Source of the DNA: a virus
Direction: 5' to 3' (one strand)
IMG/VR virus record: IMGVR_UViG_3300043331_000549
Location: 1-42,626 of that record
DNA length: 42,626 nt
A program made the position numbers and the translations under genes. The notes beneath the pieces were generated by a model that had not been told where the DNA came from, searched no databases, and was given only the letters and a program-made list of their open reading frames with translations. How positions within the stretch are numbered: position 1 is the first letter of the stretch; the number at the start of each line of letters is the position of its first letter. Below, one piece after another: positions 1,361 to 34,458 of this stretch.

Positions 1361-1924
1361 TTAACAATCCTGCCTTATGACCCACCTGAAACACACGGAT
1401 CGCCCGGGGAACTTCGCGCCATCTACAAGCGCGCCGCATTTCTGCAGTTCCTCGATGCTGTACGATACGAAAGCACTTCTGCGGTCACGATTCCATGTCT
1501 GTGGCCGACTGTCATCCAGCAACCCAGCGCGACGCATCACTTCGACGTCGACAATTACGTACTCTTCGAGATCATCATCCTGATCAATCCAGGCGTAGAA
1601 GATTAGGGAACAATGCCCCTCGCGTAGCTTCTGAAGCTCTGTCTTCGCGCCGCTCGCTCGCGTCGATCGAATTGTCACATCGCGATACCGACCCGCCGAA
1701 GCAACTCGGCGAACGCGCATGCCCATCTTTACCCGTGGCCCGAATTCGGCAGGTAACTCGATAATTGCATCGGTCGCTTCCTGGGTGTCGCTGACCATGT
1801 CACTCAGCGACCTCGTGACGATATGCGTGAAGAGATATGAAGTAATTGCTTCCATTGCGGACTTATCAAATCTCTTTGCCCACTTCCAATCTTCACGCAC
1901 ATCATCCGGGAGTTGATCGTTCAT
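1361..1924 (-). CDS. Hypothetical protein (187 aa), partner of the methyltransferase gene
   Basis: The ATG at 1924 overlaps the TGA of the ParB/MT-A70 gene (ATGA), so the two are very likely coupled. The N-terminal half is helical. The middle has alternating strands with a D-x-T-I-R segment and a T-E-L-Q-K segment, followed by a FYAWIDQDDD stretch. The spacing of these charged residues faintly recalls a PD-(D/E)XK nuclease core, but I cannot show the full motif. If it were a nuclease, the pair with a methyltransferase would be notable; at present this is only a suggestion. Confidence 0.6.
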   Translation of the reverse strand: MNDQLPDDVREDWKWAKRFDKSAMEAITSYLFTHIVTRSLSDMVSDTQEATDAIIELPAEFGPRVKMGMRVRRVASAGRYRDVTIRSTRASGAKTELQKLREGHCSLIFYAWIDQDDDLEEYVIVDVEVMRRAGLLDDSRPQTWNRDRRSAFVSYSIEELQKCGALVDGAKFPGRSVCFRWVIRQDC

Positions 1925-3066
1925 GCGACAGCCTCTTTACCCCATGCTTCAAAACCATCAATAGAACGACGGCTAAACATGTCCAATCGCCTGCCGGATG
2001 TCACCCGTCGCACGATGCCGTAAAACTCTTCTGGCTTCTCGCTGTGCTTGCCGCGAGGTGCGTTGAAACACGTCGGCAAGTCTTTCGTCGACTTGAACGA
2101 CGGCGTGCCTCGCCTTGCGTAGAGTGCAAATTCGCAATTGAATTGCGGCAGCCCGATAGGCTGGAAGCCGCCCGGCTTGTGCCAGACGAACGTGCAGACG
2201 TATTTAAGATGCCACGCATCCAGTAATTCAAAGGCGTCGCGAATGAATCGCTGTGTTGTCCACAACCAAACGTGACAATCGTTTGCGAACGGCGGTTTTA
2301 ATAGAATCAATTCCGCCTGCGTCATCGTCGGGTAATCGAATGCCGCCTGATTCGGCCGCACATCACGCTCGATCTTTTCCATCCGCCACGGCGGATCGAT
2401 CACGATTACGTCATAAATGGCTTGCGTTGCCACAACGGGACGCTTGGCCAATTCTTCGAGTTTCTGATGCTGCTCTTTTCGTTTCAACTCGCGCCACGCC
2501 CGCTCGACCTTGCCCGTCGATTCCATAAGGTCGATCGCTTCGGCGTCGCCCGACTTCGCCACCGCCTTGGCTTTCTCGTAGGTCGGTCCAGACATACCGA
2601 TTGATTCGCCGACTCTCCGTGAGGTTTCATTCTCGTGACGGGAAACTTTACCCAAATTTTGGGGAGAGTTTTTCTTCCGCCCGCGTCCACCAGACTTCTG
2701 TCCTTCCTCTTTCCGCTTGTCCGCCTTGGGCCGTTCCAGCTTTTCCAGCCGCTCGCCGAGTGCCACCGCTTCTAGCGGCGTGAAGTCCTTACGGCAGACG
2801 TTTTCGTCACGCTCGGCCTTGAGCAGCAGCAACGCCTCGTCAAGGTTGTTCACGACGTGCGCCGGGATTGTGTCACCGAGGTTTGCACGCTTCCAAGCTT
2901 CTAGGCGACGACGGCCCGCGACGAGATTCGACTCCGGCGTCACAACGATCGGTTGCAACAAACCAACTTCGCGGATACTCGCCTCAAGCGAGGTTAAATC
3001 ACCGAGGTCTTTGCGGAACCGTTTCCCGACGACTATGTCAGCCACGCGGACAATTGTGATAGCCAC
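1921..3066 (-). CDS. ParB-like domain fused to MT-A70-type adenine methyltransferase
   Basis: 381 aa. I chose the GTG at 3066 because GGAGGA lies five bases upstream; the longer frame to 3210 runs through the structured element at 3131-3202. Residues 1-100 are ParB/Srx-like, with the GLLQPIVV...LVAGRRRLEA signature (about 35-57) and E..N..R.DF.P.E near 88-100. A basic linker with RGRKK follows. The C-terminal part carries DPPW at 224-227, the catalytic motif of MT-A70 methyltransferases, which transfer a methyl group from S-adenosylmethionine to N6 of adenine. The likely role is modification of phage or host DNA at sites chosen with help of the ParB-like domain. Confidence 0.85.
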   Translation of the reverse strand: MAITIVRVADIVVGKRFRKDLGDLTSLEASIREVGLLQPIVVTPESNLVAGRRRLEAWKRANLGDTIPAHVVNNLDEALLLLKAERDENVCRKDFTPLEAVALGERLEKLERPKADKRKEEGQKSGGRGRKKNSPQNLGKVSRHENETSRRVGESIGMSGPTYEKAKAVAKSGDAEAIDLMESTGKVERAWRELKRKEQHQKLEELAKRPVVATQAIYDVIVIDPPWRMEKIERDVRPNQAAFDYPTMTQAELILLKPPFANDCHVWLWTTQRFIRDAFELLDAWHLKYVCTFVWHKPGGFQPIGLPQFNCEFALYARRGTPSFKSTKDLPTCFNAPRGKHSEKPEEFYGIVRRVTSGRRLDMFSRRSIDGFEAWGKEAVA

Positions 3067-3130
3067 AGAGATCCTCCGTGCACTTAGAATCCCTAGGCGG
3101 CTGAAAGACGCCGCCGAAATCAAAGTTAAA

Positions 3131-3202
3131 GGTGGCGGGTGTTGCAAAGAAACGTCGGCCTTGCCGATGTTTGGCCGTCCTTGCGGATAGGCCCACCCGC
3201 CA
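3131..3202 (-). ncRNA. Structured RNA element A (paralogue of element B)
   Basis: The ends form a perfect 8-bp stem (TGGCGGGT 3133-3140 with ACCCGCCA 3195-3202). Read on the minus strand, the interior has a hairpin with GGCC/GGCC pairing, a UCC/GGA stem and a GCAA (GNRA) loop (3173-3193), then AAACAU and a second GC-rich hairpin (CGGC-AAG-GCCG). A second copy at 4181-4252 keeps the outer stem, the GNRA loop and the AAACAU linker, and swaps one inner base pair (G-C for C-G). It lies between the 3265-3450 gene and the methyltransferase start, so it should be in the mRNA leader of the latter. Confidence 0.55.
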
Positions 3203-3264
3203 TGTTTCAAACAAGCTCACGCCGCCGCGCCCAATCGCCTGATTTACGACGGCGTGAGCAACGA

Positions 3265-4252: not shown

Positions 4253-4254
4253 AG

Positions 4255-4301
4255 TGGAGCGGAAGGGAGTCGAACCCTCGACCTCAGCATTGCGAACGCT
4301 G
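4255..4301 (-). other. attP candidate: 3' half of a tRNA-Ala-like gene
   Basis: On the minus strand this is a tRNA from the anticodon arm to the discriminator base: 5-bp anticodon stem (4285-4289/4297-4301) with loop TTCGCAA (anticodon CGC, Ala), variable loop AGGTC, T arm with loop TTCGACT (4263-4279), acceptor strand CCGCTCC and discriminator A at 4255. The 5' half does not supply the matching acceptor strand (GGAGCGG), so the tRNA is incomplete. Integrases of this class often use tRNA 3' halves, and the integrase starts about 170 bases away, so this is the likely attP core. No CCA is encoded. Confidence 0.7.
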
Positions 4302-4472
4302 CGCCGCTGGGACCGACGATCTCCCCCATCGCCGTGGGGCATAATCCGCAGCAATCAACCACCGTTTGCGGGGTTGATAGCGAGAGTCAATGACTTATTT
4401 TCGTGGCGGGAATAGGGACCGCATGATGCGTGGCTTGATTAGGAGCAGACCTGTGATTCAACGCCTGCCACC

Positions 4473-29767: not shown

Positions 29768-30148
29768 CTAATCGCTCCCGCTTGATGGCCTCGTACCGCC
29801 TTGAGACTGTGTCTTTTCCTGAGCACGTTCAAAGGCTTCTGCGACTTCGCCTGAATTCAGATCACCGACGCGAATCAACTCGATCATCGTCTGCTGATCG
29901 ATCTCGCGATCCTTCTTGTACTCGGTAAGGATTTGCAGCGACGCGCCACTGAATTCCTTCGCTGCTTCCTTCAGTTGACGACTATTTTTTTCGTATCCCT
30001 CGTTGATCGTGATAAGAAACTTGGGCACGTCATCAAAGATTTGTTTGAGCGCCGCCGAATTCATCCCGATCAGAATGATCAATAGCATCCAGGCAACGCC
30101 CTGTGTCTTGGCAACCTCTGCCCAGCTTGAAGTCGTCCCAATGTTCAT
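29768..30148 (-). CDS. Membrane-anchored coiled-coil protein (126 aa), holin/spanin-like
   Basis: A single membrane segment (VAWMLLIILIGMNSAAL, about residues 18-34) near the N-terminus precedes a long charged helix (YEKNSRQLKEAAKEFSGASL, then EYKKDREIDQQTMIELIRVG). This architecture is shared by some phage holins, spanins and other envelope proteins. It sits in a cluster of membrane or exported proteins with the peptidase gene, so a lysis role is worth testing; sequence alone does not prove it. Confidence 0.5.
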   Translation of the reverse strand: MNIGTTSSWAEVAKTQGVAWMLLIILIGMNSAALKQIFDDVPKFLITINEGYEKNSRQLKEAAKEFSGASLQILTEYKKDREIDQQTMIELIRVGDLNSGEVAEAFERAQEKTQSQGGTRPSSGSD

Positions 30149-30371: not shown

Positions 30372-30752
30372 CTAATGACATCCACGTCCAAAGAGACGAC
30401 CGCGAAACAAGCGCCGCGAACCGAAACGCTGCATGATTCGCACGCGCTGCACGCCCACAGTTGCGCCTGCACAGCCGTAAGCCGCACCAGCACAGTTGGT
30501 GGCGCGGTAGACGACGGGCGGTGGCGCCGCAGGCTGGCACGTCGTGCAGGCCTGCGGGTGATCGGCCGCTGGCAGCGGCAATGGATCAAGTGGCGCCGGT
30601 GGATCGACCGGCAGGTCCGGTTGATGCTCAATCAGCACCGCAGCCGTCGAACCCGGCATGAGTTGCGTGAAGCTTGTGAAGTCAACTCGCTCGCCAGCGG
30701 TTAACGCCGCGCCACACGCCAGTACGATCGACGTGAAAATGAGTCCTCGCAT
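30372..30752 (-). CDS. Secreted cysteine-containing protein (126 aa)
   Basis: The ATG at 30752 has GGGGAG upstream and gives a signal peptide (MRGLIFTSIVLACGAALTAG). The mature part is Pro-rich (LPVDPPAPLDPLPLPAADHP), then has several cysteines (ACTTC, NCAGAAYGC) and an Arg/Phe-rich tail (RRLFRGRLFGRGCH). Small exported proteins with such tails are common in planctomycetes, but I know no function. It follows the peptidase gene. Confidence 0.55.
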   Translation of the reverse strand: MRGLIFTSIVLACGAALTAGERVDFTSFTQLMPGSTAAVLIEHQPDLPVDPPAPLDPLPLPAADHPQACTTCQPAAPPPVVYRATNCAGAAYGCAGATVGVQRVRIMQRFGSRRLFRGRLFGRGCH

Positions 30753-30767
30753 GATGTCTCCCCTCAT

Positions 30768-32759
30768 TCAGACTACGAAAATCGGCTTCTGCGGTAGGAA
30801 CGTTTTGCCGCCGGTCATCGCAAACGAATCACGCCAACCCTTGAGCATCCGCAGCAGCACCTCGAATTCGATCAGGAACACGCCCTGCGGCAGCTTCAAC
30901 GTGCGGCCGCTTTGCAGTTCCACCTCGTGTGACCCAGTCGGAGACTCGCCCCAGCTCTGCTGAATCGGGATCGCCAGTTCAAACGATCCGCCACGCTTGG
31001 CCATGCAGATTCCGCGGGCCAACATGCAGTGCGCCCAATTTCCAGACGGATCGCAGAAACCATACTTGTCACGCGTCTGCTTAAAGCCCTGATTGCTGCA
31101 CACCGGCAGCGGATAGCCGTTATAGAGTGCCGCTTTCGCTTCGTCGTCCGTCACCACGAGCGACGTCGTGTCGACGATCCGCTCGCGGGCGATTGGCTCC
31201 AAATCATTCGGCACACCGGAGCGACCATACGTGCGTGCCAGCTGGCCTGAATATTTGCGAAAGTCGTACTCGCCATAGACGCGACGCTTGAGCACGCCCC
31301 AGTCAGTGACCGCACGTGCCGCCCAGGCACCCGTCGAACCGTCGCCGCCGATGCGGCCTTTGCCAACCTCGACACGCGAGAAGCCATAGAGTGGCTCAGT
31401 GGCAACCTGCTCCCGCAGGTCGGGCGTGTCGTAGCCGGCACGTGCAGCCGCCATGAAGACCAAGTCTTGCACACCGCGAGCCCAGGCCTGTGAGACGCAG
31501 TTATGGCCCACCGTGCCGTTCGCGATAAAGCTATGATACGGAGAAGCTACCCCGATATCGTAAACCTCGTGCGGTCCTTCTTCGGCTGTAATCGAGTCGA
31601 TGCGACGGGCATAATATCCATGCCACCATTGCCCATATCGCTTTTCTGGCGACTCAACAAACTGGCAGCGGAAGAGAGGTTTCGCATTATCGTACGTCCC
31701 CACACCTCGCGGATGCTTGCCTACCGAAGGTGAATAGCCCATCGCGATCAATGACGCTTCCGCGCCATGGATCACCGACATGCTAGTGGATGTGAGGCAC
31801 CTCGACTTTCCAGCTCGATGCCCGTCTCCTGCCATCAATCCGTCGAGAAACTCCCGCTTTCCGATTGCCCATGTCGGGAATTGTTTCACACCATCGTCGT
31901 CATAGAATGTCTCGCGAAGCCATGCCACTAAAGTGCGTGAGTGTACTCGTACGCGAACGGCTTTTCGCGTCTTGTATTGACCAGTACGAGGGCTCCAGCC
32001 GCAAGCTCGTAAGCCATTAACGAGACGTTCCAGGTGGGGCGACTCTTGAGGCAATGTCCATTCGACACTGCCTCCAGAGGCATGGCCGTTTGCTAAAAAC
32101 AAGCCTAACCAAAACCGCTCTTGTGCATTCAATTCTTCCGCGTCGGGCTCGATTTTGGGATGCAAAAGATAATCACCGGATTCCAGCTCACCTGCACGAA
32201 TCCACGTCGGCACCGTTTCCGATACCAGCTTCCGCAATTGCTTCACTGCCGGAGCTTCACCGAATTGCTTGGCTTCTGACTCTAGACGCGATGGAATTGC
32301 ACGTCGCCCGCCACGCACTGCTGGCCTAATCACTAGCAGTTGGTGATCCGCGGTGACACGAGTCGGCAACGCACCCAGGCATTTGATCCGCAGCAGCGGG
32401 CGATTCACGAGCTTTTTGACTTTCGAGATGACTCGCGTCATCGCCCCAGTGCCATCGAAGATTTCGTCGCACAACTCAACGTCGCGAATCGCCTTCGTGC
32501 GACGTCCGAGAATCTGTGCATCGCCCGCATAGCAGTCGCCCACCGTTTGACGATGTGCCGGCAGCGTGTCACCAAACAGCGGAATCTCGCCCTGTTCCCA
32601 AAAGAAAATATCCCGGTGTTCCGTCGCCAACAGCTCACGACTGGCAGCCGTCGCGAAGATCGGTCGCGGCATCCCCTCAATCGCTTCCGCTACGAACTCC
32701 GGTCGGTCCTTCCAGCCGAAGCGAGCGTTCAGCGGCGTCACCTTGGCAGCCGTGCCCAT
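30768..32759 (-). CDS. Papain-like (C1) cysteine peptidase interrupted by an intein at the catalytic Cys
   Basis: 663 aa unspliced. The host protein is residues 1-75 plus 421-663 (318 aa after splicing). It has papain-type motifs: RQTVGD-C-VSQAWA around the nucleophile, GNWAHCMLARG with candidate His577, and IPIQQSWGES (papain NSWG; Asn replaced by Gln601). The intein (76-420) begins CYAGDAQIL and ends VGHN, so Cys421, its +1 residue, is the predicted nucleophile. Before splicing the oxyanion Gln71 and Cys421 are 350 residues apart. The ATG overlaps the preceding TAA. It may act in virion maturation, entry or lysis; sequence does not say. Confidence 0.8.
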   Translation of the reverse strand: MGTAAKVTPLNARFGWKDRPEFVAEAIEGMPRPIFATAASRELLATEHRDIFFWEQGEIPLFGDTLPAHRQTVGDCYAGDAQILGRRTKAIRDVELCDEIFDGTGAMTRVISKVKKLVNRPLLRIKCLGALPTRVTADHQLLVIRPAVRGGRRAIPSRLESEAKQFGEAPAVKQLRKLVSETVPTWIRAGELESGDYLLHPKIEPDAEELNAQERFWLGLFLANGHASGGSVEWTLPQESPHLERLVNGLRACGWSPRTGQYKTRKAVRVRVHSRTLVAWLRETFYDDDGVKQFPTWAIGKREFLDGLMAGDGHRAGKSRCLTSTSMSVIHGAEASLIAMGYSPSVGKHPRGVGTYDNAKPLFRCQFVESPEKRYGQWWHGYYARRIDSITAEEGPHEVYDIGVASPYHSFIANGTVGHNCVSQAWARGVQDLVFMAAARAGYDTPDLREQVATEPLYGFSRVEVGKGRIGGDGSTGAWAARAVTDWGVLKRRVYGEYDFRKYSGQLARTYGRSGVPNDLEPIARERIVDTTSLVVTDDEAKAALYNGYPLPVCSNQGFKQTRDKYGFCDPSGNWAHCMLARGICMAKRGGSFELAIPIQQSWGESPTGSHEVELQSGRTLKLPQGVFLIEFEVLLRMLKGWRDSFAMTGGKTFLPQKPIFVV
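31500..32534 (-). mobile_element. Intein with LAGLIDADG (DOD-type) homing endonuclease
   Basis: Residues 76-420 of the 30768-32759 product (345 aa). Splicing motifs are Cys1 (CYAGDAQIL, block A), T-A-D-H at 136-139 (block B), VYDIGVASPYHSFIAN (block F) and VGHN|C (block G). The endonuclease domain has LAGLIDADG-type motifs LGLFLANGH (218-226) and LDGLMAGDGH (305-314). The first lacks the usual acidic residue (Asn224), the second keeps Asp312. The target is the conserved active-site codon stretch, a typical intein choice. Confidence 0.85.
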
Positions 32760-33484
32760 TACTGACTCCTGCTGGCTGCGAGGCGAAGTGCCGCACCGAC
32801 CTCGTTGAGCGCCCCGACGAACACGTCACGCGAGGTACGGCCTGACTCGTAGAGCTTCGTGAGACCGACGCGAACCACGTCACGCCAGGGCTGCCAGAGG
32901 GCCACGTCGTTGCCCAGTGCCGCGCTCGAGTTGCGGTTGACCTGCGTGATTGCCGCCGAGATATCCGCAGCCTCTCCGTCCGGTCCGACGGTTGCCGCCA
33001 GCCAACTCGCCGCGGCCTCGTAAATCGCACCGAGTTCGGCGGATTGCTCTGGCCGATTGAGCTTCCAGGCAGCCTGAAAGGCCGGTAAGCCAACGCCGTA
33101 CTCGTTCGGGACGTCGTCGTCATCCGGTCCCGGACCAGGCGGCGGATCAGGATTGTCCGGATCATCCGGCCCCGGTCCGGGATTCGGAGGACCGATCGTG
33201 ACCGTTGCCTGACCCTGCGAGTCGGAATCGACTGCGAACCAGAACACGAAATACCGGCCGGGAGGGCCAATGAACACAAATCGCCCATCGGCCAGCTTCT
33301 CACGCTGCACCGCCTGCGGCTTGTTGTCCTGCGAGGGAAGCACAAAGACGCGTTCGCCCTCGGCCGGCAGAACGTACACGAACTGGTGAGCCGGCACCGA
33401 GAGACCAGGCTGGATCTCCGCTCCGTCCGTCACCGCAGCGGAGACCAGCCAAGCCAACAGCAACAACAGCCCACGTTGCAGCAT
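32759..33484 (-). CDS. Secreted two-domain protein with acidic Pro/Gly linker (241 aa)
   Basis: The start MLQRGLLLLLAWLVSAAVTD is a signal peptide. A beta domain (FVYVLPAEGERVFVLPSQDN) with GRYFVFWFAVDSD follows. A linker of P, G, D and N (GPPNPGPGPDDPDNPDPPPG) leads to a helical C-terminal domain (AFQAAWKLNRPEQSAELGAI). It is translationally coupled to the intein peptidase gene and could be its partner or substrate. Family unknown. Confidence 0.6.
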   Translation of the reverse strand: MLQRGLLLLLAWLVSAAVTDGAEIQPGLSVPAHQFVYVLPAEGERVFVLPSQDNKPQAVQREKLADGRFVFIGPPGRYFVFWFAVDSDSQGQATVTIGPPNPGPGPDDPDNPDPPPGPGPDDDDVPNEYGVGLPAFQAAWKLNRPEQSAELGAIYEAAASWLAATVGPDGEAADISAAITQVNRNSSAALGNDVALWQPWRDVVRVGLTKLYESGRTSRDVFVGALNEVGAALRLAASRSQ

Positions 33485-34254: not shown

Positions 34255-34458
34255 CTACCACGTCGCCATCGGGTTGTTGGGCGGGTTGTCGTTTCTGTGC
34301 TTCTGGATGACGTCAAACACCTCTTGACGATAGATTGGCATGTCGAGCGGTGCATCAATTCCCAATCGCACTTTGTCACCGACGATCTGAATCACCGTCA
34401 CACGGATGTTGTCACCGATCATCAGTGACTCGTTATTGTGTCTGCTAATCACTAACAT
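34255..34458 (-). CDS. csrA: CsrA-type RNA-binding translational regulator
   Basis: 67 aa. It begins MLVISRHNNESLMIGDNIRV and carries the family core with Arg6 and Arg44, the two RNA-contacting residues of CsrA, at the usual positions (YRQEV). GGAGGA lies upstream of the ATG at 34458. CsrA dimers bind GGA in hairpin loops and block or stabilise mRNAs. A phage copy may redirect host mRNAs, or control its own transcripts such as elements A and B, which display GGA. Last gene of the early block. Confidence 0.9.
   Translation of the reverse strand: MLVISRHNNESLMIGDNIRVTVIQIVGDKVRLGIDAPLDMPIYRQEVFDVIQKHRNDNPPNNPMATW

Follow-up and report, generated by a model that had tools for sequence, protein, structure and literature searches.

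Inteins described in mycobacteriophages occupy the active sites of the terminase (TerL), of RecB-like and TOPRIM proteins and of thymidylate synthase (PMC5050341). For inteins in general, the insertion site is described as an invariant codon, from which only an exact deletion is harmless (PMC5050341; PMC7765530). Conditional splicing has been documented for mycobacterial DnaB (PMC6195587, PMC7360933).

Here, we describe an intein in a predicted papain-like protease of a tailed phage. The analyzed DNA, referred to as the window, is recorded as viral and spans 42.6 kb (42,626 nucleotides); since it carries genes for terminase, portal, head maturation protease, major head protein, head-tail adaptor and tape measure, it derives from a tailed phage. 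The locus resembles the mycobacteriophage systems in that sporadic homing inteins are found at invariant active-site motifs (PMC5050341). However, the host protein is a C1-type peptidase, a single Cys is both the intein +1 nucleophile and the predicted nucleophile of the enzyme, and a relative carries an intein at the catalytic His. Our searches of the open literature retrieved no description of a papain-like protease that carries an intein. The inserted element shares its domain plan (HINT + LAGLIDADG) and its splicing blocks with PI-SceI/VMA-type inteins, to which the precursor model also has its best fold matches, but it differs in host gene, in insertion site and in the first LAGLIDADG acid, which is Asn. 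With peptidase family C1 (papain; nearest solved structures xylellain, 3ois, and cathepsins), the protease shares the fold, a Cys opening the central helix, the His, the SWG motif and a Gln ahead of the Cys. In contrast to that family, the window protein carries Gln instead of Asn and falls below the Pfam threshold, and no inhibitory propeptide was identified in it.

Layout of the precursor gene

The features of the precursor gene and of its neighbors are summarized in Table 1. Removal of the intein would leave a protein of 318 amino acids, as computed from the open reading frame. The GC content is 55% in the intein and 61% in the C-extein. The first-pass annotation had placed the intein between GD and CVS, and coordinates, splicing blocks and gapless intein-free homologues agree with this placement. 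Counting of residues also confirmed that Gln71 and Cys421 are 350 residues apart in the precursor. Three details are added to that annotation, namely the minus strand, Gln256 at the position of the papain Asn and the spacing of five residues between Gln71 and the Cys after splicing.

Table 1. Features of the protease locus (window positions) and carriers of inteins at the Cys codon. Labels joined by a slash denote the same carrier.
Feature	Position	Strand	Basis
Predicted secreted protein (signal-peptide-like N-terminus, Pro-rich linker), upstream of protease	32759..33484	minus	Relatives' profile
Intein-containing C1-like peptidase precursor gene	30768..32759	minus	ORF, ATG start, 663 aa
N-extein, residues 1-75, C-terminal end HRQTVGD	32535..32759	minus	Comparison with intein-free relatives
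Gln71 codon, predicted oxyanion-hole glutamine	32547..32549	minus	Gln 127/128 in family
Predicted class 1 intein, residues 76-420 (CYAGDAQIL...GTVGHN), 345 aa	31500..32534	minus	Splicing blocks, TIGR01443
Intein Cys1 codon (block A)	32532..32534	minus	Intein comparison
Intein block B TADH, residues 136-139	32343..32354	minus	Intein comparison
First LAGLIDADG motif FWLGLFLANGH, catalytic acid = Asn	32082..32114	minus	Intein comparison
Second LAGLIDADG motif FLDGLMAGDGH, acid retained	31818..31850	minus	Intein comparison
Intein C-terminal His419-Asn420 (block G)	31500..31505	minus	TIGR01443 + intein comparison
Cys421 codon (Cys76 in the spliced protein), predicted nucleophile of the protease and +1 residue of the intein	31497..31499	minus	Cys 128/128; aligned to xylellain/papain Cys
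C-extein, residues 421-663 (CVSQAWA...) and stop	30768..31499	minus	Comparison with intein-free relatives
Catalytic His232 codon (spliced numbering; precursor 577), motif GNWAHCM	31029..31031	minus	His 128/128
Gln256 codon at papain Asn position (QQSWG)	30957..30959	minus	126 of 128 aligned sequences read NSWG
Small predicted secreted Cys-containing protein, downstream of protease	30372..30767	minus	ORF list, N-terminus
Small protein with a single hydrophobic segment, resembling holins only by its size	29768..30148	minus	ORF list
Clade II carriers at Cys codon: window, L127/L123/L195/L196, L163/L194, L192, L193, L198, L197 (fragment)			
Clade I carriers at Cys codon: L124/L121/L126, L125, L128 (fragment), L122			

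Fold and predicted nucleophile of the protease

Direct Pfam, PHROG and PDB sequence searches with the window extein returned nothing, so that its assignment as papain-like enzyme needed the relatives. Pfam Peptidase_C1 (PF00112) matched 23 of 57 relatives (best value 2.7e-9), and the viral family has no PHROG match. When a profile of the family was compared with the PDB, xylellain (3ois) was retrieved at 3.9e-6 together with papain-family chains, and the family Cys fell on the Cys of these proteins. In the profile alignment, the motif GTVGDC pairs with GRIGSC. For structural modeling with AlphaFold, we used the intein-free relative L130, to which the window protein is about 40% identical, together with 57 family sequences. 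The resulting model (pLDDT 89.9, pTM 0.89) shows Cys74 as first residue of the central helix (74-93), like Cys25 in papain, and its Foldseek matches are headed by xylellain, followed by cathepsins (E 1.3e-9 to about 1e-6). Because this model and the fold and profile matches put the family Cys there, Cys421 of the precursor is predicted by homology to L130 to occupy the position of papain Cys25. The window protein itself is predicted to adopt the papain fold, by homology to relatives only, and the +1 residue of the intein is predicted to act as nucleophile in a C1-type peptidase. Two earlier proposals are supported: the papain-like fold is borne out by the L130 model and the PDB matches to xylellain and cathepsins, and the nucleophile position by the invariance of the Cys (see below) and its alignment to xylellain and papain.

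Conservation of the insertion site in relatives

Scanning IMG/VR with the spliced sequence yielded 25 relatives; an alignment retrieved the best 80 of 171 relatives and a more diverse alignment the best 80 of at least 560. Most relatives are intein-free, and such homologues (31-42% identity) align without any gap across the GD/CVS junction. In an alignment of 128 distinct sequences, Cys76 and His232 (motif GxWxHxM) are present in all 128, and so is SWG. The oxyanion Gln was found in 127 of them and the papain-type Asn in 126, this position being Gln in the window protein (Gln256) and in L132. Gln71 lies five rather than six residues N-terminal of the Cys in the window protein and in the largest subfamily; the canonical NQGxxGSC spacing is present in other family members. 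The intein-free homologues therefore confirm the insertion point and keep the Cys, and among the orthologues we found none that lacks it; the lack of a Cys at this site had been named in the first-pass annotation as speaking against its proposal.

These data also bear on the question of whether the spliced protein, although papain-like in fold, might serve in structure or binding and lack peptidase activity, in which case the coincidence of the two nucleophiles would have no catalytic meaning. The window protein carries Gln256 instead of Asn and is devoid of the Trp at 261, and several relatives encode Cys-less paralogues of the same fold, which indicates that the papain fold can be retained without catalysis. 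However, Cys, His and Gln persist in nearly all of the 128 orthologues, even where identity drops to about 30%, and a dead fold would have no need of them. Thus, we consider a non-peptidase function unlikely, and weak or altered peptidase activity of the window protein is possible in view of Gln256 and the missing Trp.

The Cys-less paralogues are located near the protease gene (L129, 621-2441, minus strand; L047, 6021-7793; L048, 3503-5059; L051, 6163-7743). They retain the His and NSWG motifs, but Gly takes the place of the nucleophile and long Cys-rich insertions are present, and from their sequences they look like catalytically dead copies. A 607-aa open reading frame in the L089 contig was considered as third intein case but was rejected, since it proved to be a paralogue that is devoid of the Cys and has different insertions.

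Protein searches of annotated phages (INPHARED), for which the window protein and three of its relatives served as queries, gave no homologue. Contigs of prokaryote genomes yielded two protease loci only (L106, L107), both in a Lokiarchaeota metagenome-assembled genome, which may be explained by contamination during binning or by a virus infecting that host. Each of these viral protease copies stands behind a ribonucleotide-reductase-like gene. The terminase relatives of the window phage (L108-L113) carry no protease copy within these fragment records.

Properties of the intein

The intein signatures are complete and comprise Cys1, block B (TADH), block F (EVYDIGV...H), the C-terminal HN and the +1 Cys. 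NCBIfam TIGR01443 (intein C-terminal splicing region) scored 22.9 bits against a cut-off of 15.6 and its match ends at residue 421. Pfam Intein_splicing (PF14890, 24.5-27.7 bits) and LAGLIDADG_3 were both under their gathering scores. For the unspliced precursor, AlphaFold gave a low-confidence model (pLDDT 63, below 50 in the N-extein), too poor for active-site geometry; the best fold matches of this model were the PI-SceI and TliVMA inteins (E 2.7e-14), and its endonuclease domain also matched I-DmoI. On the basis of the sequence features and of the exact empty site, we classify the element as class 1 intein, for which splicing is predicted.

The pair of LAGLIDADG acids is incomplete in the window intein, which reads ANG in the first motif and has an intact GDG in the second. 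The first acid is Asn in the window intein and in L192, and Asp or Glu in the other inteins having an endonuclease domain. Because this catalytic acid is replaced, the window endonuclease is probably crippled. The intein has diverged (35-38% identity to the nearest intein), and a single-sequence scan gave no close relatives.

Asp before an intein can favor N-terminal cleavage over splicing. Thus, the Asp at position -1, the divergence of the intein and its crippled endonuclease would fit a splicing-dead or cleavage-only element in a gene on its way out, from which no active protease is made. This scenario appears highly improbable, however, because every splicing block and both junction residues are intact, the frame of 663 codons is open and undamaged, and Asp at -1 is common to all Cys-site carriers with an N-extein in their record.

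Recurrence of inteins at the catalytic residues

Carriers were found by the HN-CVSH junction pattern and by later scans, and about ten further distinct relatives have an intein at the same Cys codon. The intein tree separates the window, L192, L163, L127, L193 and L198 from L124, L125 and L122 with a support of 99-100%. L122 carries a mini-intein of 170 residues without endonuclease. Another intein is found in L089/L129 immediately C-terminal of the catalytic His (GSWAH/CMAW). Together with the two clades at the Cys codon, this probably brings the number of intein lineages at the catalytic Cys and His to three.

On a tree of 45 proteases, eight changes of intein carriage were counted for eight carriers. 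The carriers are scattered among intein-free sisters, and L127 and L122 are neighbors on the protease tree with inteins from different clades. When we scanned for clade II inteins, seven of eight loci were the same protease with the same codon, and the eighth was a weak C-terminal match in a ribonucleotide reductase. Since carriers are scattered, two clades share the codon and seven of eight clade II loci map to it, the data fit a hot spot at which homing into one allele would be accompanied by repeated gain and loss. The Cys codon has probably been colonized independently at least twice, an estimate made with the root of the intein tree not fixed. This recurrence is the main addition to the earlier description, and it makes the phenomenon more general than the single window gene.

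As a separate observation, a 73.9-kb viral contig (L199) encodes a ribonucleotide reductase with apparently at least two inteins.

Gene neighborhood

In the sequence TAATG, the protease start codon overlaps the stop codon of the gene lying upstream, which encodes a predicted secreted protein. This gene is a conserved partner, since a profile of the upstream genes of five relatives matched it (E 6.8e-11), and relatives of this protein precede the protease in L163, L130, L135, L144 and L149. An N-terminal membrane-like segment is present in 26 of 170 protease relatives and was not found in the window protein. In the downstream region, 93 loci encode a small membrane protein, one representative of which weakly matches transglycosylase-associated proteins. 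From these neighbors, our best guess is a role of the protease at the cell envelope. A role in capsid maturation was also considered and is thought unlikely, because a separate head maturation protease is annotated in this phage (22432-23055).

Thioredoxin-domain proteins are encoded directly downstream of the protease in L130 (5214-5657) and L127 (6102-7043), where the window has the gene for the small Cys-containing protein. They are probably exported and possibly act as redox partner for the protease thiol. The window also encodes, a few genes upstream of the protease, a phage CsrA global regulator (34255-34458, minus strand; Pfam CsrA, 1.4e-22). Elsewhere it carries a gene in which a ParB N-terminal domain is joined to an MT-A70 methyltransferase (1921-3210, minus strand) and a tRNA-Ala gene with the anticodon CGC (4254-4327, minus strand).

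Discussion

Taken together, we consider it highly probable that the window gene encodes a papain-fold precursor in which a class 1 intein sits right before the catalytic Cys, so that the enzyme depends on splicing, and that this codon is a recurrent homing site. According to this model, the catalytic Cys doubles as +1 splicing nucleophile. Excision would join GD to CVS, giving the same reading as in the intein-free relatives, and would free the thiol as the enzyme's own nucleophile; for this step, we infer a splicing-competent intein and an active spliced protein. In papain-type enzymes, the oxyanion hole is formed by the backbone NH of the nucleophile and the Gln side chain. Before splicing, the HINT domain would sit on the active-site end of the central helix with Asn420 preceding the nucleophile, the Cys would be tied up in the splicing chemistry and Gln71 would reside in the other extein, across the insert. 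For these reasons, the unspliced precursor is likely to be inactive, which corresponds to a zymogen effect; judged from sequence alone, a docked precursor with a free thiol may also occur.

Whether this effect serves a purpose is a different question. The first-pass annotation had suggested that splicing could set the timing of entry, maturation or lysis, and conditional splicing (e.g., dependent on redox state, export or infection stage) would then time the protease. Several observations are consistent with such a program: inteins persist with a crippled (window, L192) or lost (L122) endonuclease, they are found at both catalytic residues (Cys and His), thioredoxin-domain proteins adjoin the protease in L130 and L127, and mycobacterial DnaB provides a precedent for conditional splicing (PMC6195587, PMC7360933). 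However, most relatives are intein-free with carriers scattered on the tree, no sensor domain was identified, and the requirement that a deletion be exact accounts for the persistence of the inteins. Thus, we regard programmed timing as very unlikely. There is a similarly slim chance that, in a subset of viruses, inteins with decayed endonucleases are kept because delayed or redox-dependent splicing silences an envelope-active papain-like protease until late infection.

The suggested timing function was not borne out by the phylogeny, which indicates repeated homing with most relatives intein-free, nor by the presence of a separate head maturation protease. The other option raised at that time, a by-product of intein survival, is better supported by the repeated homing into one codon. 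The arrangement would have arisen because this codon can neither change nor be deleted imprecisely without killing the enzyme, and a codon that is undeletable except precisely would make a recurrent homing site. From the sequences compared here, repeated invasion of such a codon looks more like the strategy of a parasite than like a purpose-built switch, and splicing is probably constitutive.

The protease described here is an unusually clean case, since one Cys serves both splicing and (predicted) peptidase catalysis, and it belongs to a viral peptidase family that previously had neither a PHROG nor an annotated-phage match. Members of this family lend themselves to asking why inteins are found at active sites (undeletable codons or regulation), and they provide a model from nature for proteases that are activated by splicing.
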